Source: Amaurobius ferox
Lineage: Eukaryota; Arthropoda; Arachnida; Araneae; Amaurobiidae
Assembly: GCA_951213105.1 (NCBI GenBank)
Contig: OX578139.1
Span: forward strand, 67,844,634 to 67,908,633
DNA length: 64,000 bases
Direction of reading: 5' to 3'
The notes below the pieces were generated by a model. The model did not search any database. It saw only the letters and a program-made list of their open reading frames with translations, and was not told the origin of the DNA. Positions within the stretch are counted from its first letter, which is position 1. Every line of letters begins with the position of its first letter. Positions 9,362-26,827 of the stretch are shown in pieces. Made by a program: the position numbers and the translations under genes.

Positions 9362-10758
9362 CCATCATCACGGGAGAACGGCTGAACCGAATTTGATGAA
9401 ATTTTGTGGGTAGCCCAGAAATAGCCCCACTTAAATTATATCCGTGTTTTGAGTTTCTAAGACCAGTGGTTCTCGAGATATTAGTAAAAAACGAAATTTT
9501 CGTTTGTCTCATCGTCACGGAAAAACGGCTGAACCGAATTTAATGAAATTTGGTGAATAGCCTTGAAATATCCCCCCATAAATTTTGTCCAAGTTTCGAG
9601 TTTCTAAGACCTGGGGTTGTCGAGATATTAATGAAAAACGGAACTTTTTCCTAGGAGTTCTACTCCCTAACTCCGTGGTTTATCCAAACGAAAAGCTTGA
9701 AAATCGTTTGAAAGTGAATTAAAATTTAATCTCTGAGTTTGATGGGAGATTTTTTGCGTTAATTAGTCACTTTCTGAAGACATGAATTGTTGGAAACATG
9801 ATTTAAAGGGGAAATCTATCTCCATGGTTCATGGTTTATTTAAAACAAGCTTTTACGGAACAATGAGAAGTATAGAGAAATCAAAATCGTTATTTAATTT
9901 CGCAGTTTATGTTATAAGACATGACATATTTAACATGTTATAAGATTCTATCTTATATCATGTTACTCAGAAACGCAATTAAATTAAATCTGTCTGTTAA
10001 TTTTAATAATTATTTTTTCGATTTGAATAATAAATAAATGGATATAAAAATATATTTTAGAAAAGAACGATTTGATTTTTCTTATAGCATTTTCGACTGG
10101 ATAATATCAATTACGGTCTTCAGGTTTAAAAATTATTATTATTTATATTTTAGGGGATTATTGATTCAAGGATTATTGATATTTTCAAGTTATTATGCAA
10201 TTATTTTATTATGACAAAAATTGTTTAAACTCATATATTGTATGTTGTACGAATCTTCTACAAATACACGTGTATATCTTTTAATCTACGAGAATATAAG
10301 TAGTACAGGTATATTGACATATGTTTTGATATATATTGGCATATATTGGAATCAATTACGACCTTCTGGTATAAAGAGTACGGATATTATTGATGTTTTC
10401 AATTTATTACGTCATCTCTTTTATTTTGGCAAATATTTTTGAGACGCATATTGTAATACGGGTAATCTTCTACTAACACATTGGCATATTTTCTGATCTG
10501 CGACAATATAATTAGTACGGGGTTGCATATATTCATTCAATTCTTATTTTTTCTTCTGTAAATTTGCTTACAAAAGGGGGCAGGATGTTTTATTCTTCAG
10601 ATCTGATCGTGAAGATAATTTTGCATAGTGAGAACATATATTCTTAAACTTCTCTTTAGGAGCAATAAATTTAATATTTTAACAGAATTTGCACATGATT
10701 GCGAACTTTAAGTTTCTTTAAATTATACACTCCGTACGAATAACGGGTGTGCTGTTAG
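9286..10758 (+). mobile_element. non-autonomous Helitron, copy 1 of 3
   Basis: It starts TCTATATAAATAAAAATG, continues with a CTGT run and then GAGAACGGCTGAACCGAAT, a motif common in arthropod Helitrons. It ends with the hairpin CCGTACGAATAACGG and GTGTGCTGTTAG, where the expected CTAG reads TTAG. No long open frame. The interior is shared with the two following copies. Confidence 0.8.
9308..9357. repeat. CTGT microsatellite
   Basis: A near-perfect (CTGT)n run just inside the Helitron 5' end. The same position is used in the copy at 11,087, while the copy at 13,391 has only a short remnant. Confidence 0.9.
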
Positions 10759-11086
10759 TGGTTAATAAATTTTAACATTTTAGGAGGATATATCATGTTG
10801 CTCGGCATCGCAATTAAATTAAATGTGTTTGTTAATGTTTTTATTATTTTTTTTCGATTTAAGTAATAAATAAATGGATAAATGGATATAAAAGTATATC
10901 TTATGAATGGACGGTTTGATTTTTCTTTTAATTATATTAATTGCTGACTGCGTACATCAATTTCATTTATTTTGGCAAAGAGTTTTCAAGCTTATATCGT
11001 ATTTAGCTACTAAACTCATATATTGTGTTTAGCCAATAAATTCATATAGCCGATTGTTGAAACAGAAAAAGAGTAGAGCGGGTATA
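10759..11086 (+). mobile_element. Helitron fragment between two copies
   Basis: This segment is highly similar to about 13,976-14,310 inside the third copy: it starts GTTAATAAATTTTAACATTT and ends GAGTAGAGCGGGTATA. It has neither Helitron end, so it is an internal piece of an older copy interrupted by the insertion that starts at 11,087. Confidence 0.7.
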
Positions 11087-11108
11087 TCTATATAAATAAA
11101 ATTGAAAA

Positions 11109-11150
<42 letters not shown>

Positions 11151-13390
11151 CCATCATCACGGGAGAACGGCTGAACCGAATTTGATGAAATTTGGTGGGT
11201 AGCCTAGAAATAGCCCCACTTAAAATTTAGTCCATGTTTGGAGTTTCTACAACCAGTGGTTCTCGAGATATTAGTAAAAAACGAAATTTTCGTTTGTCTC
11301 ATCATCACAGAAAAACGGCTGAACCGAATTTAATGAAATTTTGTGGATAGCCTTGAAATAGCCCCCCATAAATTTTGTCCAAGTTTCGAGTTTCTAAGAC
11401 CAGGGGTTGTCGAGATATTAATGAAAAACGGAACTTTTTCCTATGAGTTATACTCTCCAACTCCGTGGTTTATTCAAACGGAAAGGATCAAAATCGTTTG
11501 TTTAAAACGTCGAAAGGAAATAAAACTTTATTTCCGAGTTTGGTGCAGGATTTTTGCATTAAATAGTCACTATCGGAAAACGCGAATTGTTTGAAACATG
11601 AATTTAAATGGAAAAATCTACCTCCATGGTTATCTTTCACAAGCTATTACTCAACGATGAAAAGTATAAAGAAATCAAAATGGCTATTTAATTTCGCATT
11701 TTATGAGGAAGATTCTATCTTATATCATGTTGCTCGGCAACGGAATGAAATTAAATGTGTTGTTAATATTTATTATTATTTTTTCTATTTGAATAATAAA
11801 TAAATGGATGAAAAAATATATTTTTTAAATGAAAGGTTTGGTTGTTCTTTTAATTATATAAATTGCGGACTGCGTACATCACTTTCATTTATTTTAGCAT
11901 AGAGGTTTCCAGCTCATATATTGTGTTTAGCTAATAAACTCATATATTGTGTTTAGCTAATAAACTCATATATTGTGTTTACCCAATAAATTCATTTAGC
12001 CGATTGTTGAAGCAGAAAAAGAGTAGAACGGCTTTATCTTATAATACAATTTTAGTGTTTTCATTTAGAATATACAAACGGGATTAGGACATTTTATTCT
12101 TCAGATCTGCAAATTTAGTGCTTCGAGTTTAGCGGAATATCTCTAAATAACTTGGTAACTTTTCTTAAACTTTACCAAATTAGCGGAAATGTTTCCAAAT
12201 TTATAAAAATGACGCAAATCAATGATTTGTTTTTTTAGAATAGAGTATTGAAATGGTGTTTCGGTAGCATTTGTCGGTCAGTTCATCCATCCTACTTAGT
12301 AACACCTTTAACGAATTTTTTTAATATCACCAAATTGATAAAAATATTTGTAAATCCATAAAAATATCATGGAATTGATAAAATTGCGCTTAATAAATTA
12401 AATTAATTTTGTTTTGTTAGGGGATAGTATTGTGATGATGTTCCGTCAATTTGTCGCAAAATGGGATTATCAGTTCCACAGCCCCACTTGGCGATAAATT
12501 TGGCGATTTTTTAAGTTATCGCTAAATTGACAAAAATGTCGCCAAACCTTCCATGGAGATAGCATTATTCAGACGATATGATTTCCATCAATTTATTTTA
12601 AGCAACTGATATCACGTCGCTTAGCAACGGATCCAATGCGTTATGTGCTATACGATTTTTATTAAATCTTTACCGATTTGAATAATAAAGATATGTGTAT
12701 AAGATAAATTTCATTGACATTGCATTTTTGACTGGATAATATCAATTACGGTCTTCAGGTTTAAACATTATTATCATTGATATTTTCAGGGACTGTTGAT
12801 TCAGGGATTATTCATATTGTCAAGTTATTATGCCATTGTTTATTTATGACGAAAATTGATGAAACTCATATATAGTACGTTGTACGAGTAATCTACAAAT
12901 GCACGAATATATCTTCTAATCTACGAAAATATAAGTAGTACAGGTATATTGGCATATATTTTGATATATATTGGCATATATTGGAATCAATTACGGCCTT
13001 CTGGTATAAAGATTACGGGGATTAGTGATATTTTCAATTTATTACGTCATCTCTTTTATTTTGGCAAATATTTTTGAGACTCATATTGTAATACGGGTAA
13101 TCTTCTACCAACACACTGGCATATTTTCTAATCTGCGACAATATAAGTAGTACGAGGTTACATATATTGATTCAATTCCTTTTTTTTTTGTAAATTTGCT
13201 TACAAAAGGGGCCAGGATGTTTTATTCTTCAGATCTGCCCGTGAATATAATTTTGCATAGTGAGAACAGATATTCTTAAACTTCTCTTTAGAAGCAATAA
13301 ATTTAATATTTTAACGGAATTTGCACATGATTGCGAATTATAAGTTTCTTTATATTATATATTCCGTACGAAGAACGGGTATGCTGCTAG
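11087..13390 (+). mobile_element. non-autonomous Helitron, copy 2 of 3
   Basis: It starts TCTATATAAATAAAATTG and ends with hairpin CCGTACGAAGAACGG then GTATGCTGCTAG. The CTAG is at 13,387-13,390, immediately followed by the TC of the next copy. It contains a CTGT run at 11,110-11,147 and a ~27-bp direct repeat (CTCATATATTGTGTTTAGC) at about 11,910-11,990. No Rep/helicase frame is present. Confidence 0.85.
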
Positions 13391-15898
13391 TCTATATAAA
13401 TAAAATTGAAAATCTCTCTGTATGTCTGTCTGTTTGTTTGTCCCATCATCACGGGAGAACGGCTGAACCGAATTTGATGAAATTTTGTGGGTAGCCTGGA
13501 AATAGCTCCACTTAAAATTTAGTTTATGTTTTGAGTTTTTACGACCAGTGGTTCTCGAGATATTAGTGAAAAACGTAACTTTAGTTTGTCTCATCATCAC
13601 GAGAGAACGGTTGAACCGAATTTAATGAAATTTTGTAGGTTGCCTTGAAATAGCCCCCCATAAATTTTGTCTACGTTTCAAGTTTCTCAGACCAGGGGTT
13701 ATTGAGATGTTGATGATAAACGAAACATTTCCTTAGGAGTTCTACTCTCTAACTCCATGGTTTATGCAAGCGGAAAGGATGAAAATCGTTTGTTTAAAGC
13801 AACAAAGAGATTTAAAACTTCATTTCTGAGTTTGGTGTAGGATTTTTGCACTAATTAGTCACTATCTGAAAGCATGAATTGTTTGAAACATGAATTTAAA
13901 TGGAAAATCTATCAGCAAGTGTTTTTTTTTTCACAAGCTTTTACGCAACGATGAAAAGTATTAAGAAATCAAAATGGTTAATAAATTTTAACATTTTATG
14001 AGGATACATCATGTTTCTCGGCAGCGCAATTAAATTAAATGTGTTTGTTAATGTTTTTATTATTTGTTTTCGATTTGAATAATAAATAAATGGATAAATG
14101 GATATAAAAGTATATATCTTATGAATGGACGGTTTAATTTTTCTTTTAATTATATTAATTGCTGACTGCGTACATCATTTTCATTCATTTGGGCAAAAAG
14201 TTTTCAAGCTAATATTGTGTTTAGCTACTAAACTCATATATTGTGTTTAGCCAATAAATTCATCAAGCCGATTGTTGAAACAGAAAAAGAGTAGAGCGGG
14301 TATATATATATATCTTCTAATACAATTGTAGTGTTTTCATTCAGTATATAGAAACGGGATCAGTATATTTCATTCAGATCTGCAAATTTAGAGCTACGAA
14401 TTTGGTGGGATATCGCTAATTTCGCAACTTTTCTTAAACTTAGCCAATTTGACGGAAATGTCACCGAATTGATAAAGACGACGTATATCAATGAAATTTA
14501 TTTTGTTTTGTTAGAAGAGAGTACTGAAATGATGTTTGGTTAGCATTTATCTGTCAGACTAACCGTCCTATTTAGTAATACATTTAGCGAATTTTTAAAA
14601 TGTCATCAAATTGATAAAAATGTTTTCAAATCCATAAAAATATCTTGAAATGGATACAATTGAGGTAAATAAATGAAATTAATTGTTATTTGTTAAGGGA
14701 TAGTATTGGGATGATATTTCGTCAAGTTATCGCCAAGTGGAACTGTCAGTTCTACAGTCCCGCTTGGCGATAAATTTGGCGAGTTTTTAAAATGTCGCTA
14801 ATTTGACGGACATGTCGCCAAAGGTTCCATAGAAATAGAATTATTTAGACGATATTTTTTCCACCAATTTATTTGAAGCAAATGATATCATGTCGCTTAG
14901 CAACGGATTTAAATCCAATGTGTTTATGCGAGAGACGATTTTTATTAAATCTTTTTCGAACTGAATAATGAAGATATGTATATAAAATAAATTTCTTTGC
15001 CATTTCAGTTTGGACTGGATAATATCAATTACGCTTTTCAGGTTTAAACATTATTATTATTGATATTTTCCGGAATTATTGATTCAGAGATTATCGATAT
15101 TTTTAAGTTATTACGCCATTGTTTTATTGCGGCAAAAATTGATGACACTCGCATATTGTACGTTGTGCGAGTAATCTTCTAGGAATGCACGGGTATATCT
15201 TCTAACCTACGAGAATATAAGTAGCACAGGTATATTGGCATATATTTTTTGACATATATTGGCATAAATATTGGAATCAAGTACGGCCTTCTGATATGAA
15301 GATTAAGGGGATTAATGATATTTTCAATTTATTACGTCGTGTGTTGTATTTTGCCAAAGACATTTAAGACTCATATTTTAATGCGAGTTTTAATTTTCTA
15401 CTAATAATCGAACATATCTTCTCATCTACGACATTATAAGTAGTACGGGTATATTTTCGCATATAATTTTAGCACTTTCATTTTGACATATATTGGAATA
15501 AATGACTGTCTTCAGATTTAAAGATTACGGGTTTATTGATATTTTCAATTTATACATGTAATTTACTAATACAGGTTATATTTTCTAATATTCACGTATG
15601 TAATTAGTATGGGTCCCATACAATTTTAATTTGCATATATTTATTCAATTCCATATTTTTTTATATTTGCTTATATAAGGGGTCCAGGATGTTTTATTCT
15701 TCAGATCTGTCCATGAAGATAATTTTATATAGCGAGAACAGTGATTCTTTAACTTTTTTAGGAGCATTATATTAAATATTTTAACAGAATATTTTCATTA
15801 AAAATGTCATTTAGTATACTATAAGAATTTGCACATGATTGTGAATTTCAAGTTTCTTTATATTATATACTCCGTACGAAGAACGGGTATGCTGCTAA
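13391..15898 (+). mobile_element. non-autonomous Helitron, copy 3 of 3
   Basis: It starts TCTATATAAATAAAATTG directly after the CTAG of copy 2. It ends with hairpin CCGTACGAAGAACGG and GTATGCTGCTAA, so the terminal CTAG is mutated to CTAA. It is the longest of the three and contains all blocks seen in the others. No supported gene: the 81-codon minus frame at 13,355-13,600 spans the repeat start. Confidence 0.8.
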
Positions 15899-16680
15899 TA
15901 ATTCAATAATAGACAGTATAATTAATTGTGAGATAATTATTCTTTAAATTTTAGGCCGACTCAATGGTTGGACTGAATTTGCTTGTCACCATAGAGGCTT
16001 GCAAAATTACGGCAACTTTCAAGATTTATTGTTTATGATGTAGTTATCGGATGCTGAATGTCGAAGGATGCTGTTATAGTTAGAACCAATCTATCAGTTC
16101 TATGGTGGATGCATCAGAAGAGTAATAACAAGTTATTCTTACTTTTAATGAATAATAGTAATCAATTTAAGATGAATAATATAGGACATATTGAAATTTC
16201 ACTGTATACAATTGAAGTATGAAGAATGATTTGTTTCTATACTTTCCTTTTATTTTTAGTTCAAAATAAGAAATTTTTTTTTCAAGTTGTTTGTGTTTAT
16301 ATAAAAATTCGCCTTTTATTACATTTACCTTGGAACATTTTTCTTAGACAAAGGTTTCATAAATTACAGTATATGTTGCTGACGCTTGTTTCTGCCATGG
16401 ATATTTTTTATTAATTTTTGCAAACTGATGGTTACATGCACTCTGTAACATTAAAATCAATAATGTACTGAAGTACGTGATTTACTTCTATGAACTTTCA
16501 AACGCAATGAGTATCTAAAAATAAAGAAATGGTTACATTTTCTTTCCAAAAATGTTTTTATTACAGAGCAGTGACAACACAACGGTCACGTTAATACATG
16601 GAATATCTTAATCTGGTAGCTATGCTAGCTTATATGCGATGTGGCATGGACACCAAGATTAGTTTCTTGCATGTACTGTC
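15899..16680. other. AT-rich sequence, no gene seen
   Basis: No supported feature. Confidence 0.4.
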
Positions 16681-20624: not shown

Positions 20625-20763
20625 TTATTTAATAGTTTCCATAGTTAAAAGATTTGTACTATTTAACTCTTATACATTTGTGCAGCGCACTTAGTACACT
20701 ATTTAGAGGTGACACTCTAGTGCTTCACATAAAGCCATATTTGTATCAAAACGACACCTAATA

Positions 20764-20835
20764 GTAGTGTATGGGGGTGACTTTGGGACAAAATGACTAT
20801 GCCATTTGGTGTCCAGAGTCACCCCCATACACTAC
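20764..20835. repeat. 72-bp palindrome, candidate terminus of the Polinton-like element
   Basis: GTAGTGTATGGGGGTGACT at 20,764-20,782 is perfectly complementary to 20,817-20,835 (19 bp). A few further matched bases continue inward, leaving a loop of about 34 nt. It sits at the outer edge of the non-coding tail of the gene block, where an inverted terminal repeat would be expected. No second copy was found beyond the truncated right end, so terminal-repeat status is inference. Confidence 0.6.
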
Positions 20836-20880
20836 ACTTTCCTCCATTTTTTTTAAAAATCAGGACAACCTCTTAAGACC

Positions 20881-20925
20881 AAAAATGCATAAAATCATTC
20901 AAAAATGCATAAAATCATTCAAAAA
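20881..20925. repeat. 20-bp direct repeat, two copies and a partial third
   Basis: AAAAATGCATAAAATCATTC is at 20,881-20,900 and 20,901-20,920, followed by the first few bases of a third copy. It lies in the non-coding tail of the Polinton-like block. Confidence 0.9.
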
Positions 20926-21160
20926 TGTGTATTTAAAAAAATCAAAAATCAAGAGAGTTTTAGGACTCTAAAATTTAATACATTTTAACTTTTATTTAAG
21001 TCATATAAAACATTATTGAGACCATATCTATCAAAATCTTTGAATATATGAAAGAAAATAATATCAAATGTATTAGAGATGATATTAAGATAAATGCATG
21101 AAAAAAGAGGACCTCCAAATGAATGGAAGCCCTCTAATATATTAAAAATGCTCTGTTTTT

Positions 21161-21190
21161 AAAGGGTGGGGTTGAGACCCCCCCCCCTTT
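21161..21190 (-). terminator. GC hairpin in the non-coding tail
   Basis: AAAGGGTGGGG, a six-base loop, then a run of ten C and TTTTTT form a stable stem with one mismatch. It may be a 3'-end or replication structure. The function is inference. Confidence 0.4.
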
Positions 21191-21254
21191 TTTATAAAAT
21201 TAAAAAGAATTATTAAAATATGTCAAAATTAAAAAAAAGGCAAGTTTAGATAAC

Positions 21255-21275
21255 ACGATCCCAAAATAGGATCGT
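21255..21275. other. 7-bp perfect hairpin
   Basis: ACGATCC pairs with GGATCGT across a seven-base loop. One of a series of short hairpins between the palindrome at 20,764 and the last gene. Confidence 0.5.
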
Positions 21276-21402
21276 CTCAGATATATTTTTTAAAGACTAT
21301 GATAAATATAAAGAAGAATATAAAATCTAAAGATTATCAATTAAATTTAGGAAAGATAAAAAGAAATGACAAATAATATACTATATATAATAATAAATTT
21401 TC

Positions 21403-21427
21403 AGGTGGGGAAACATTACCCCCACCT
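21403..21427 (-). terminator. hairpin downstream of the last gene of the block
   Basis: AGGTGGGG pairs with CCCCACCT over a nine-base loop, about 32 bp past the stop of the OB-fold-like gene. On the minus strand it is followed by an AT-rich run. A transcript-end role is plausible but not shown. Confidence 0.45.
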
Positions 21428-21458
21428 AAATATGATACAATTAATCTTTAAAAAATGA

Positions 21459-21721
21459 TTAAGCTTTCTCTAATTCATACTCGTATTTATCATCTATCAT
21501 ACCCGTATACTTAAGTATATATCTACCTTTATTTATTGATTCATCAGAAAGTTTTCCATGCTTATTCGCAAGGTAAAACTCTTTTTCTTCATCATATAAC
21601 TTTACGATTACTGAATCTCCATATTTAGTATTAATTTTTCTCAATGATCATATTTCCCAGGATATAAATCTTTTAATGTAAACGTTTTGGGATAACCTCT
21701 AAGTCTATTGAATTCTTCCAT
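21459..21721 (-). pseudogene. small OB-fold-like protein, frameshifted
   Basis: The start ATG at 21,721 lies in the motif ACTAATAAATGG, the same context as two neighbouring genes. The first ~26 codons are open to a stop near codon 27. The rest continues in another frame from about 21,644 to the stop at 21,459. The C-terminal piece includes RKINTKYGDSVIVKLYD and a following KLSDE and GRYILKYTG. This 'TKYG..V.V.L' pattern recalls small OB-fold, possibly single-strand-binding, proteins encoded by arthropod Polinton-like elements. That is pattern recall and not an alignment. The 3' part has no ATG of its own (a TTG lies at its edge), which supports one broken gene over two genes. It is the last gene of the block. 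Confidence 0.55.
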
Positions 21722-21752
21722 TTATTAGTAAACATTTTTATAAATATAAATT
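21719..21752 (-). promoter_or_regulatory. shared upstream motif, copy 1 (TATA plus ACTAATAAATGG)
   Basis: Read on the minus strand: TTTATATTTATAAAAATG, then TTTACTAATAAATGG, ending at the start codon of the OB-fold-like gene. It is nearly identical to 22,009-22,042. A TATA-like box 15-20 bases from a TAAATG start suggests a viral-style promoter. That is inference. Confidence 0.6.
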
Positions 21753-21765
21753 CACCCTGAAGAAT

Positions 21766-22011
21766 CTAATCATAATAGAATAAGTTCTTTGAAATAACAT
21801 ATAAAACTCCTAATCCATTCAATTTAATATCTTCATTTTCTTCCTTTTCAATTAATACAGTCATCCTTTGTAAACTTTCTGATAATAGTTTTTTAGTATG
21901 ATCATATTTTATATACAAATCATACAATTCTTTACAAAGATAAGTCAAATAGTAAATTTCTTCAGAATTTGTAAAATTTAAAGCTCGAATATCACCTAAA
22001 CACTCATCCAT
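21766..22011 (-). CDS. unknown 81-aa acidic helical protein
   Basis: An intact frame from ATG at 22,011 (context ACTAATAAATGGATG) to the stop at 21,766. I do not recognise it. The sequence is rich in Glu, Leu, Lys and Tyr and looks helical throughout, with heptad-like stretches such as LCKELYDLYIKYDHTKKLL. There is no signal peptide, no transmembrane segment and no Cys/His cluster. The shared upstream motif and the tight spacing to the genes on both sides argue that it is a real gene of the Polinton-like block. It is one of the few members without an obvious lesion, though short genes survive by chance more often. Confidence 0.6.
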   Translation of the reverse strand: MDECLGDIRALNFTNSEEIYYLTYLCKELYDLYIKYDHTKKLLSESLQRMTVLIEKEENEDIKLNGLGVLYVISKNLFYYD

Positions 22012-22042
22012 TTATTAGTAAACATTTTTTATAAATATAAAT
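22009..22042 (-). promoter_or_regulatory. shared upstream motif, copy 2
   Basis: On the minus strand it reads TTTATATTTATAAAAAATG, then TTTACTAATAAATGG, differing from copy 1 by one extra A. It ends at the start codon of the 81-aa gene. It also contains the stop codon of the degraded gene upstream. Confidence 0.6.
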
Positions 22043-22190
22043 CCATCCATTCTTCATAATCTGTAAAACCTCTATCTTACATCTCTTTTTTAAGTTTTTC
22101 TCTGTATTCTTTATCAAACTTTGACTCTCTAAATATTTTTTCAGCTATACTATTTTTTGTTCAATATCAGAAATAGTAATAGAAACATTA
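22029..22190 (-). pseudogene. small degraded gene
   Basis: Protein-like sequence is split between two frames. A short stretch with ITISDIEQK runs from about 22,190. A second stretch with AEKIFRESKFDKEYREKLKK, then a TAA-type stop, then DRGFTDYEEWMDLYL runs to the stop at 22,029. So there is at least one frameshift and one nonsense codon in about 160 bp. The product is unknown, charged and probably helical. It lies between the LSxxFI-repeat gene and the 81-aa gene. Confidence 0.45.
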
Positions 22191-22220
22191 ATTATTAATA
22201 AAATACATTTTTATAAAATA
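22186..22220 (-). promoter_or_regulatory. shared upstream motif, degenerate copy
   Basis: On the minus strand: TATTTTATAAAAATGTATTT, then a TTAATAATTAATG start region. It keeps the TATA-like core and spacing but has a weaker start block. It begins directly after the stop of the LSxxFI-repeat gene. Confidence 0.4.
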
Positions 22221-22221
22221 T

Positions 22222-22854
22222 TTATTTTTCATCTTTTCTCAAAAGACATTCGTTCAAGATTTTTTTAACTTCACAAATCTCTTCAATAATTTTTTCTCTA
22301 TAAGATTCTTCTTCATAATGACCAAACTTTTTATTTAATTCACTCATCTGCATAGCTTGTATTTTTTTCCAATAAACATTAAAAAAGTGATCAGGTAATA
22401 GATCATATTTGTATTTAATCAAATAACAAAAATCTAATTTATCCATAAATTCTTCTATAAAATTTTCACAAAATGTTTGATATCTAGCTATATACAGTCA
22501 ATTTAAATCATCTTTTAATTCTCTCATGGTATGTTCTGTAAGATTTTGAAACATTGATACTTTATATAAATCTAAATAATCATAAAATTTTATGATAAAT
22601 TCGTTACTTAAAGTTTGATAATGAGAAATGTTTTCCCAAACTACTTTATCTTTACATTTTTCTATAAAATCTTCTGATAATTTTTGATATCTAGAAATCA
22701 TAGGCCAATCATCAGGTTGAGCAAATTCTTCAATAAAAGAATCAGACAGTGATGAATACTGAAATATTAAATCCATAATTACATGATCTTTAAGATTTCT
22801 AATTACATCTTCAGATAAATTATTTCTGGAAAATGCATTCCAATCGATATCCAT
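22222..22854 (-). pseudogene. LSxxFI-repeat protein with one in-frame stop
   Basis: The frame from ATG at 22,854 (context ACTAATAAATGG) runs to TGA at 22,498-22,500, then continues in the same frame to 22,222: about 210 codons in all. The protein is built of ~25-residue units with the pattern W..IS.YQ.LS..FI...KD. Clear examples are WPMISRYQKLSEDFIEK and WENISHYQTLSNEFIIK. The units continue after the TGA (ARYQTFCENFIEEF), so the stop is a lesion inside one gene. The C-terminal 40 residues are charged and end LRKDEK. Similar repeats are known to me from large DNA viruses of invertebrates and protists, where their role is unclear. I would not assign a function. No membrane segment. Confidence 0.7.
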
Positions 22855-22880
22855 TTATTAGTGAACATATTTTAGAAAGG
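22852..22880 (-). promoter_or_regulatory. shared upstream motif, copy 3
   Basis: On the minus strand it reads TTTCTAAAATATGTTCACTAA, then TAAATGG, at the start of the LSxxFI-repeat gene. The ACTAATAAATGG core is exact; the TATA-like part is weaker than in copies 1 and 2. Confidence 0.5.
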
Positions 22881-22965
22881 GATTTTTTCAATATGCATAT
22901 AAGATTTTAAAGTGTTTGAATTACCCTCAGGTTATATCAATAATGTAATAATATCGTCACGTTTT

Positions 22966-23700
22966 TCATAGGCAAAACAAATTACTTTTATGATATATAT
23001 ATCTTCTTCCTAGTGGATGATCTATATCCATATGTATTAAATATACGGAAATTTTCATATACATATCTGTAGTTAATCGCATCTCTTGATCCAGTAATTT
23101 AGAACTCATCATGTTGAAATTTACTTTTTTAAGTCCCCCATTTGTAAAAGTTTGAAAATCATCTTCTATGGTAACCCAGATATCTCTATTGTCTAAACAT
23201 ATTTTATTGACAGCATCATTATCATTTTCAGGTTCTGAAACATTCGTAATTATTTTATTTTTTGCATCAAATTTAAAATTCTGTAATATTAATGTTTTTT
23301 TTTCAAAATATCTTTTATTCACAACATTTTTTTCATCTTTAGGATCTGCTACATTTCCTATTCTTTTTCCTTTTGCATCGTAAGGTTTTCCTTCTAAAGA
23401 ATGTAAAGTTGTTTCATCTAATTCTTTTATTCTCTTACCTGTTTCTTCAGTAAAGGATAAAAAATCCTTATCATATTTAGTTTCTATACGATCTCTCAAT
23501 TCAAAATGATTATTCTCTATTTTATTCAAAACGAAACTTTTAGTGGTTAAATCTAAATCATCTATAGGATTTTCACAATTTTTTAAAATTCTATTATCCA
23601 TATCATAATTTCCATCATCCATTAATTAAAAGCCTATAACAGGAGGTCCAATAGGCCCTTCTTTCATTTGATCATCATAAGGTGGATAATAAGCACTCAT
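22966..23700 (-). pseudogene. fibre-like protein, interrupted near its start
   Basis: The likely original start is ATG at 23,700 (context ATAATAAATGAG). Its first 24 codons are proline-rich and end in a short collagen-like GPIGPPVIG. A TAA at 23,626-23,628 interrupts the frame. The same frame reopens at ATG 23,622 and runs 218 codons to 22,966. That part holds about three degenerate units of the type D...(K/N)(R/K)I.N...P.....(D/N)(A/V)VNK, for example DAKGKRIGNVADPKDEKNVV and DAKNKIITNVSEPENDNDAV. This pattern is common in trimeric spike and tail-fibre stalks. The position just after the major capsid gene fits a receptor-binding fibre. No signal or membrane segment. An alternative is that the 24-codon frame and the 218-codon frame are two genes. 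Confidence 0.6.
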
Positions 23701-23717
23701 TTATTATAGCATTAATT

Positions 23718-25062
23718 TTATGATTTAAAACTCTTAACCATTGTTATAGTTTTATTTTTCAAATTTATAAAACATTTCATTATTTCCTTAAAAATAAAAT
23801 AAAACTTATATTCCTTTTGAGTATTCATTAAGCTCTCCCAATTAAATTCAATATCTAAATTATTTAAATCGGTATAGTTTTCATGATTGGATAAGTTAAA
23901 ATAGAAAATGGTATACAATTTTCCAAAATTCTTCCTATTTATTAAACATCCCGTTTCTGTATTAATATCATTTAATCCTGCATGTAAAAGAGCTTCATAC
24001 ACTCTATTATAATCTTTATTGGTAAAATTCGCTTTGTAACGCATAAGAGGAATTTGTTTATTATTAATCATCAACCAGCATTCAGTCATATCTATATTAT
24101 CAAATATCATGTTATTTTTTTCATAATTACCATCTCTTTCAACGTACTGAGGAATAACATAGACACCTAAAACTTCATCAGAGGCTGTTGTTGCTGTGAC
24201 AGATCCGCTATCACTTTTATAGGGACCTACCATTTTAAATCTATATCGATCCCAATTTACCTCTATATCTTTATCAGATAAAAATGATTCCATAAACACG
24301 CTTTCTACAAAATTTTTAAATTCAGTATAAGGTAAATGCAAGATTAAACCTTCAACTACTACCTTATAATTAACATTTTCGACATCATTATATGTCATAT
24401 TCTTATTTTCATTTCTTTGAATTTCTATTTTCACTTCAAAACCAGAAATTACCTTTTCATATTCTCCAAAGAAATCGATTACATCTTTTAAAGGTGTCCA
24501 CATTTTAATGACATTGCTACCTTTCGTTAGTTCCCATCTCTGTGAATCCTTCGTTATAATCTTTATAAATTTTCAAATTATTAAAAAATTCAGTTATTTT
24601 AGTAGTATCTTCTAAAGTACCTTCATATTTCAACTCTTTTCTGTCAGATGAATCAGCTGTATCTAGATAAAAAAATTTATCTTGAGCTTGTGATGTTGTA
24701 TAATCAGGAGTATAATGAGTTAATCTTAAAGCATGATTCACGATTGAAAAATTGGACTGTGTATTTGATTCAATTTCGGTATCTCCTATATGCACTTTTA
24801 AAGTTTTGATAAAACATCCGCCATTTACCAGACTCACATTTTCGTTTCCAATGGATGATTTATTATTTTTTGTAAGTTTTAATTTTTGTTCAAGATATCC
24901 TCTAGAATATAAAATTTTTGCTTTAGTATCATTAATACGAAAAACATAGGTGGCATTCTCATCTGAACTATGTTCTTTTGGGTGAATTTCTCTTAATTCA
25001 TAACTTTTAATTTGATCATTATAATAATAATGAGTATCACTCAAATCATAAATCTTTTGCAT
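23718..25062 (-). pseudogene. major capsid protein (double-jelly-roll type), frameshifted
   Basis: Starts at ATG 25,062, immediately after the TAA of the preceding small gene. The first frame (181 codons) ends at 24,517. The second frame (261 codons) is open from before its ATG at 24,503 and ends at 23,718. The two overlap in protein sense around 24,520-24,560, so a single one-base shift explains the break. Total length, about 445 residues, is right for a Polinton-type hexon-like protein. Features I associate with this family are a surface block with IKTLKVHIGDTEIES and FFYLDT in the first part, then PLKDVIDFFGEYEKVISGF, and a C-terminal FGKLYTIFYFNLSNHE block. No slippery heptamer was noticed at the junction, so decay is preferred over programmed frameshifting. 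It would form the pseudo-hexagonal capsomers of the particle. Confidence 0.75.
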
Positions 25063-25218
25063 TTATTTAGGAAGAATTTTTAAACCGCCTCCTTTCTTTT
25101 TCATTGAAAATATTTCATTTAATTTATTCTGTGCTTTAATAATAGGTTCAGTTTTCAATAAAATCTTTCAAAATCCTTGTAATTTTTTACTTTTTCTATA
25201 TAATCTATGTTTATTCAT
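25063..25218 (-). pseudogene. small basic peptide gene with in-frame stop
   Basis: ATG at 25,218 directly follows the TAA of the penton-like gene, and its own TAA at 25,063 directly precedes the major capsid ATG. Of 51 codons, codon 17 is TGA (25,168-25,170). The N-terminal part is HRLYRKSKKLQ-rich and the C-terminus is KKKGGGLKILPK, giving a strongly basic peptide. Position between two capsid genes and charge suggest a DNA-condensing or minor virion peptide. That is inference: the family was not recognised. The exact fit between neighbours supports it as a real former gene. Confidence 0.55.
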
Positions 25219-25962
25219 TTATTTATGAAGAAAAACCTGGTCTAACAATTGATATACGTAGTTATCCTCAAAAATAGGTATAAAATTAAATTCTACAGCT
25301 CCTTTATTTAAATCAATTAATTCACCTTTTTGATTGCTAATCCTCAATTTTATTCTTTCAACAGGATCCGTTTTAGCAGGAAAATATATCCAATTATTAA
25401 ATTCTTTTGAAATTATACTACCTGGAGGATTTTTATTAATGAAAGAATAAATGACTTCTGAATTATATTGATTTATTAAAGATCCTTTTACAACATCACA
25501 GTGAATATAAATATTATCATTTCCATTGGATATATCAGATATATGTTCACCTTCAACATCTGTTTCTTCATTATAACTTCCGTATATCGGTTTTAAAAAA
25601 CCTATAATTTTATGAAAGTTCCTTTTTGTAAAATCAATTACCCAACCCTTTTTCAGTTTAATAGCTATTCTTTGTCTTGCTTCAATAATACCAAATTTCA
25701 CAGGTGGATCCTCACCAAATATTTTTATCATATATTAATTTAAACCTCTTATAGTATAATTACCATTTGAGATAACAATTGTTATATCTGTGTCTAATGT
25801 ACACATTCTAAATATGTTATTTCCATAATTCTCACTTATATTAAACCATGAAACTTCCATAGAAAATGACTGTAAAGCTAATTTTTTTAATTTTAGAGGT
25901 GTAATAAAATTTACAGTAAATTCCTCTGATTTCTCATGACCTTCAGATTTTAATATTATCAT
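25219..25962 (-). pseudogene. penton-like minor capsid protein with one in-frame stop
   Basis: Starts at ATG 25,962 (context TGTATAAATGA), overlapping the protease stop by ATGA. A TAA at 25,735-25,737 interrupts the frame after 75 codons. The same frame continues to 25,219. Total is about 247 codons. The N-terminal part has LKLKKLALQSFSMEVSW and NISENYGNN, and the C-terminal part has IYIHCDVVKGSLINQYNSEV, IYSFINKNPPGS and LRISNQKGELIDL. I associate this pattern with the single-jelly-roll minor capsid (penton) protein of arthropod Polinton-like elements. It would occupy the fivefold vertices with the major capsid protein. The family call is from motif recall and should be tested by profile search. 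Confidence 0.65.
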
Positions 25963-26463
25963 TTATACAGAACAAAATTTTCATTAGAGTCACTGGGATT
26001 TTGTGTAGGAAATGATTTGAGAACATTTTTAGGTGATTTACCTTTATTCCTTTCTCTTATATATTTCATACAAAATAAACCACATTTCACAGATGTAGGT
26101 TTCTGTAAAAAACTATCATTATAACCTATTTTTGGTTTTTTATTGGATGTAACAAGAAATTATTAAATATTTTTAGGAATATAGTCCTTCTTCATATTGT
26201 CATATTCACCAAACGGATCAAAATATTCCACATATTTATATTTAGGATCATTATAATAACAAACCCAATGAGTTCCAGGACCTGTTGATACATTTAAATT
26301 AATGATTCCATTTTCAAATTTTCCTATTGTTTTAGGTAATAAATCAGAGGTAAATACACCTCTAAATCCTTTTTCATTTTTCATATTTTCTTCAATCATT
26401 TTGTTACTAATTCCCATGGTTGATATATCCCCTTTCCACGTTTTTTTCCCCAGATCCTTTCAT
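25959..26463 (-). pseudogene. adenain-like maturation cysteine protease, broken
   Basis: The main frame begins at ATG 26,417 and runs in phase to a TGA at 25,959 that overlaps the penton-like start. Two consecutive TAA codons at about 26,160-26,165 interrupt it. Counting from that ATG and through the stops, the catalytic set is His50 (GPGTHWVCYYND), Asp67 (EYFDPFGE), Gln105 (FLQKPTS) and Cys112 (SVKCGLFCMKYI). The His-Asp gap of 17 and the Gln-Cys gap of 7 match the adenovirus-type (C5) protease. An earlier ATG at 26,463 overlaps the stop of the core-peptide gene as ATGA but opens another frame. Sequence upstream of 26,417 in the main frame (GKKTWKGDIS) also looks like protease N-terminus, so a second lesion near 26,450 is likely. 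In relatives this enzyme processes capsid and core proteins during maturation. Confidence 0.85.
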
Positions 26464-26666
26464 TTTTTTTGTACAGCTGAACTAGCTAATCCTGATAAAG
26501 CACCTGTTGCTAATGCTGGAACTGCAAATTTAGCAGCGGTTATTAAAGAGGGTATAAGTGCTGCTAGAAATGGTAAAAATCCTCCATTTTTATCTAATTG
26601 CGTTTTACTGATAGTAATTCTTTTTCCATCATTAATATGATTAATTTGAGTTTTATTTAAATACAT
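26460..26666 (-). CDS. small hydrophobic virion core peptide (pX/pVI-like)
   Basis: A 68-codon frame from ATG 26,666, intact. The N-terminal half is polar and basic (NKTQINHINDGKRITISKTQL). Then GGFLPFLAALIPSLITAAK begins a ~38-residue hydrophobic, Gly/Ala-rich stretch, and the end is VQKK. Small proteins with a basic start, a GGFL junction and a hydrophobic amphipathic tail sit beside the protease in adintovirus-like elements, where they are compared with adenovirus core or membrane-active peptides. The stop overlaps the likely protease start by ATGA. Directly upstream, in another frame, sequence with NWKPIDFSHQLTLQ ends in a stop. It may be the tail of a further gene lost to the truncation at 26,770. 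Confidence 0.65.
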   Translation of the reverse strand: MYLNKTQINHINDGKRITISKTQLDKNGGFLPFLAALIPSLITAAKFAVPALATGALSGLASSAVQKK

Positions 26667-26827
26667 CTCATGATTAGGAGTTTTAGATTTATCTATTTGT
26701 AATGTCAGTTATTTGTAATGTTAGTTGATGTGAAAAATCAATAGGTTTCCAGTTTTCAGCGAATGTATTATTTGTACCAAATTTTGTCTGAAATGAACCA
26801 TTGGTTTATGAGATATCGTTTCCACCC

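Follow-up and report, generated by a model that had tools for sequence, protein, structure and literature searches.

A truncated Polinton/Maverick-type element in the genome of Amaurobius ferox and the palindromic tips of its family

The minus-strand gene block

The stretch of DNA analysed here (the window, 64,000 nucleotides) is part of contig C10 (67844634–67908633) of a 3.56 Gb genome in 276 contigs. As the first-pass annotation had observed, a block of minus-strand structural genes is present; it spans positions 20763 to about 26713 of the window, and its left edge is a Polinton-type terminus. Read along the minus strand, on which these genes all lie, the order is a core-peptide-like gene, a protease, a penton, the major capsid, a fibre-like gene and a gene for a repeat protein, then a pair of small genes to which we refer as s1 and s2, and last the terminus. 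G+C content is 0.24–0.28 over the block (2-kb windows) as against 0.26–0.40 in the rest of the window. Long diverged direct repeats with a spacing of about 2.3–2.6 kb occupy positions 10006–15910.

The major capsid gene (23718–25062) has homologues, and relatives of both capsid and penton are named from the spiders Trichonephila clavipes and Araneus ventricosus. Its frame is broken in the middle; the capsid of the sibling copy on contig C2 matches PF21738 above the cut-off. A structure model of the capsid relatives, of moderate confidence (pLDDT 62.7), has a double jelly-roll fold. The penton gene (25219–25962), encoding a minor capsid protein, likewise has homologues, and the model of its relatives has a penton fold, with large rmsd in the matches (about 11 over 220–237 residues); both models were compared to known structures with VIA. 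The window penton contains an in-frame stop, and in the C4 sibling the gene is a single open frame of 242 aa. Sequence searches of PDB with the capsid and penton alignments returned chance matches only, and IMG/VR yielded no relatives when searched with the capsid piece, with the capsid alignment or with a tip pattern. A reading of the block as host genes is ruled out by the capsid homologues, by PF21738 in the sibling and by the capsid and penton folds modelled for the relatives.

The adenain-like cysteine protease (25959–26459) carries in-frame stops, and the window piece matches PF00770 weakly (E 0.0072, below the cut-off); in the C4 sibling the gene is uninterrupted, matches PF00770 and PF02902 above the cut-off and aligns with adenain. 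The core-peptide-like small gene (26460–26666) has an Adeno_PX match at E 0.041, below the cut-off, and occupies the same place in the gene order as in siblings. The fibre-like gene (22966–23625), with one relative, is of the phage T7 tail fibre N-terminal type (PF03906, E 2.5e-08). In these ways the capsid-like, penton-like, protease, fibre-like and core-peptide-like assignments made at first pass are all borne out. The gene for the repeat protein, which has WxxISxYQ-like repeats (22222–22854), contains an in-frame stop; in the C2 sibling it is open throughout, at 216 aa in one frame. The window protein matches PHROG 3532, a phage protein family, at E 2.5e-28. Four window genes are interrupted altogether, the protease, penton and repeat genes by stops and the capsid gene by its frame break, and open frames are found at these genes in siblings C2, C4 or C7.

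The small genes at the 3' side had been left without assignment and considered perhaps lineage-specific. They are instead ordinary genes of the family: s2 (21459–21647) and s1 (21766–22011) have counterparts, at 67–76% and 82.5–91% amino acid identity respectively, adjoining PolB in 8 of 8 loci examined, these being the best-scoring eight of at least 85 matches to the PF03175 polymerase in the genome, some of which are two parts of one gene. Beyond s2 lies the left terminal inverted repeat, of which the part recognised in siblings spans 20763–21147, and which ends in the element tip (20763–20835), an AGTAGT terminus whose positions 20764–20835 form a 72-nt near-perfect, hairpin-forming palindrome. 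At the opposite side, comparison with siblings places a break at 26705–26716, where element sequence ends and host repeat sequence begins.

Sibling copies and the missing half

The capsid piece is found at no fewer than 136 other places in the 3.56-Gb genome with 87–92% amino acid identity to the window piece, a lower bound as 137 of 2775 first-look candidates were scored; in 31 of the 137 scored rows (hand count) the capsid frame stays open, with no stop, over 440 aa or more. The window copy itself is ordinary, one among at least 137 capsid-bearing copies of its genome. Siblings carry PolB, chromodomain integrase, A32-type ATPase and PLA2-like genes. Their layout on one strand is terminal repeat, s2, s1, PolB, chromodomain integrase, PLA2-like gene, a 129-aa gene and A32-type ATPase, and on the opposite strand a 252-aa gene, core peptide, protease, penton, capsid, fibre and repeat genes. 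The layout was read from stretches around polymerase loci, five in all (one each on C2, C4 and C7, two on C23), with not every gene covered in each; C2 is an exception to it. The C2 copy (C2:55058841–55075597; L041, L009, L010) differs from C7 in gene order, as an inversion of the penton-to-s2 segment would produce; it has an exact target duplication and carries a leucine-rich-repeat (LRR) gene at its structural end (L010:3322–4191; PF12799, E 2.4e-47). A sibling PolB has a Rho_N-type domain at its N-terminus (L015:4973–6772; PF07498, E 3.6e-08).

The first-pass annotation had proposed a search of the genome for other copies with PolB and integrase. Such copies exist. In two of them, C2 and C7, both ends are present; these form terminal inverted repeats and are flanked by exact 6-bp target duplications. 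The ends of C7 align over 548 nt and are 99.6% identical, and those of C2 over 305 nt at 97.7%, which indicates that some insertions of the family are recent. Among seven paired ends inspected by eye, three have an exact target duplication, two have one mismatch and two have inverted flanks instead. In the latter (G000:C7:8347922–8370192 and C22:44446426–44461814; L068/L103, L073/L076, L105–L108) one flanking sequence, of about 60 and 49 nt respectively, recurs in inverted orientation outside both tips; gene conversion between inverted repeats running past the tip would fit this arrangement. Two family ends on C17 (C17:71768331–71769944; L093, L085) lie 1.6 kb apart, with a 6-bp duplication bearing one mismatch, and probably delimit a short, non-autonomous element derived from the family. 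In the window copy the other end is lost, and hence no target duplication can be demonstrated for it.

When the sibling PolB, integrase, ATPase and PLA2-like genes were compared with the 64-kb window there was a single chance-level match (E 0.36), and the stretch upstream of the window (L019) gave matches to the genes of the missing half at E 0.36–0.92 only. As PolB, integrase and ATPase are absent from it, the window copy is a fragment of a Polinton rather than an intact one. The original interpretation, a Polinton/adintovirus-like relic that has lost its replication half, is thereby upheld, the sibling replication genes being present elsewhere in the genome.

The loss sets this copy apart. 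Its resemblance to siblings ceases at 26705–26716, where the match to each of the 39 other scored copies breaks off (40 scored of 2215 candidates, the window copy included), and none of the 39 shares the break point. We also compared twelve close copies, namely rows 2–9, 11, 14, 15 and 29 of the list of capsid places, which are not strictly the best twelve. Genes that would belong beyond the break are present in all twelve, and in ten they lie in one stretch with the core-peptide gene. At the structural end s2 is found in 10 of the 12, s1 in 7 and an LRR gene in 7, where it follows the repeat gene; L048 gave no match. The window order, repeat gene, s1 and s2 without the LRR gene, recurs in 4 of the 12, which rules out a private rearrangement as its source. 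We therefore consider the layout normal for the subfamily and the truncation peculiar to the window copy.

Palindromic tips of the family

The window tip starts with AGTAGT and runs on as the 72-nt palindrome, with a predicted DNA fold of −26.9 kcal/mol (z −9.25) that none of 200 shuffles equalled. Further tips were collected with the repeat interior (20835–21147) as the query, which has at least 40 matches in the genome including itself, so that palindromes were not chosen. The sequence outside 38 of the 39 other matches was taken blind to palindromy, the 39th being already contained in L054; L052, L054 and the tips of the other subfamily were added once known to be palindromic. In nearly all tips read the outermost 52–72 nt of the terminal repeat form a near-perfect palindrome, and there are five core sequences, each mirrored in both arms. 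The canonical start is present in 35 tips (32 of the 38 sampled, the window, L052 and L054). In an ungapped comparison the arms reach 20 nt or more with no more than three mismatches in 28 of these and are shorter (6–14 nt) in six; the remaining tip has five mismatches over 34 nt. Six of the 38 with a damaged start were dropped (L072, L074, L079, L093, L097, L098); by eye, five of them keep most of both arms and L098 is rearranged.

Forty tips, 34 of them distinct, were aligned: 31 of the 38 sampled, the window, L052, L054 and six of the other subfamily, leaving out L082 and the C7 right tip. Three measures stand out from shuffles, none of 500 reaching any of them, although the relatedness of the tips inflates all three: complementary pair cells (96.5% versus 93.1% shuffled), cells changed on both sides (27 versus 4.7) and the covariation score (0.102 versus 0.040). 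Two others are unremarkable, namely pairs with a change on both sides (4 versus 2.7, reached by 91 of 500 shuffles) and further pair types (18 versus 15.4, reached by 38 of 500). One pair position shows all four Watson-Crick types. At the four variable pairs the arms match exactly in 35 of 40 tips and differ by one base in the other 5. The matched core types number five, one of which (AGCC) is a single tip, and as core types are inherited the independent events are few.

A plausible explanation, which we hold to be a serious contender while putting it below an even chance, is that the palindromes are passive: replication slippage would correct one arm to the other, a process known for quasi-palindromes in bacteria, and co-variation would then need no function. 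Few events would suffice for the five core types seen, and the two unremarkable measures are in keeping with this; against it, in both subfamilies the palindrome lies at the very terminus, and a difference of about 20 nt in the middle of the tips has not abolished it. More tentatively, and in our judgement rather unlikely, the palindromic tips would take part, in folded form, in replication, packaging or integration, their arms co-evolving. The tip may then serve replication or integration as a folded or dimer-bound end, for example by fold-back on displaced single strands, in contrast to the plain linear ends assumed for protein-primed elements, a suggestion that we advance with the same reserve. 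Flip-flop (rolling-hairpin) replication is not supported, as the loops keep one orientation within each core type (34 of 34 longer-loop tips and 6 of 6 short-loop tips), which speaks against it.

We know of no direct demonstration of how Polintons copy and protect their ends. The family offers a well-populated natural series within one genome, with two subfamilies whose ends can be read, and its co-varying terminal palindromes are a concrete, testable feature that bears on this question. For vertebrate Mavericks, jumping-back, protein-primed initiation is proposed in the available text of PMC8097293, and the AGTAGT end motif of the window family agrees with the Mavericks of that portion of the paper. 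No palindromic Polinton ends are described in the titles and abstract openings of the Polinton/Maverick literature searched, a scope outside which the original 2006–2007 papers fall, so that a prior description is possible; nor was a description found in the available portions of PMC8097293, PMC6431247, PMC11071296 and PMC9952930. The words 'hairpin' and 'palindrom' are absent from the main text of PMC8097293, and the hairpins in the accessible part of PMC6431247 are those of Helitrons.

Affinities and fate of the window copy

The window copy has a double jelly-roll capsid, a penton and an adenovirus-type protease; PolB, a retroviral-type integrase and an A32-type ATPase are found in sibling copies. 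Terminal inverted repeats with AGT-type ends are represented by one end in the window copy and by both in C2 and C7, and an (AGT)2 end motif together with 6-bp target duplications is described for Polintons/Mavericks in the available parts of PMC8097293 and PMC4028283. The block is almost certainly a fragment, truncated and decayed through mutation, of a high-copy Polinton/Maverick family, that is, of virus-like, capsid-coding, integrating DNA. We think it doubtful that the element is instead an adintovirus proper, in the sense of Adintoviridae, rather than a Polinton/Maverick transposon, notwithstanding that siblings have chromodomain integrase, PolB, capsid and protease genes. The available text of PMC11071296 names a chromodomain integrase, PolB and capsid as adintovirus features, the PolB having an N-terminal OTU-like domain. 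An rve integrase with a C-terminal chromodomain was seen in one sibling, the integrase gene being absent from the window copy; however, Pfam found no OTU family at E<=1 in the 600 N-terminal residues of the one sibling PolB tested, and the two names overlap heavily.

Domesticated particle-making clusters occur in some wasps, and the structural genes of the window copy are all recognisable and in order with the replication genes gone, but the idea that the host kept the block as such a cluster, the replication loss being adaptive, is highly improbable and is largely refuted by the interruptions in the protease, penton, capsid and repeat genes, at which open frames exist in siblings, with a break found in 0 of 39 other scored copies and at least 136 other capsid copies in the genome standing against it as well. 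Because those four genes are interrupted, the window copy is, to judge from its sequence, a dead fragment, a fossil and not a domesticated block. It retains one end together with the structural genes, and the other half is missing from about 26713 onward; the probable cause is a deletion or rearrangement private to this copy, and its genes have decayed. Insertion of the linear DNA of Polintons, with 6-bp target duplications, is the work of the integrase; a type B polymerase copies that DNA from its ends, and the ATPase, protease, capsid and penton proteins would form a particle; intact relatives of the window copy would work in the same way.

Compared with Polintons/Mavericks as characterised in the available text on vertebrate Mavericks (PMC8097293) and on capsids (PMC4028283), the window family has the same capsid, penton and protease, and siblings the same PolB, integrase and ATPase. 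It differs in having the additional s1 and s2, the repeat protein and a fibre gene of T7 type, to which 7 of 12 close copies add an LRR gene; the window copy is truncated, and the tips of the family are palindromes. The Trichonephila clavipes and Araneus ventricosus proteins, at 44–54% (capsid) and 50–54% (penton) identity, are more distant than the same-genome siblings; as the nearest named relatives, they make an arthropod host plausible. With adintoviruses, as far as the available portion of PMC11071296 describes them, siblings share the capsid, chromodomain integrase and PolB, although the window family is integrated at high copy and no OTU-like N-terminus was detected in the one sibling PolB tested.
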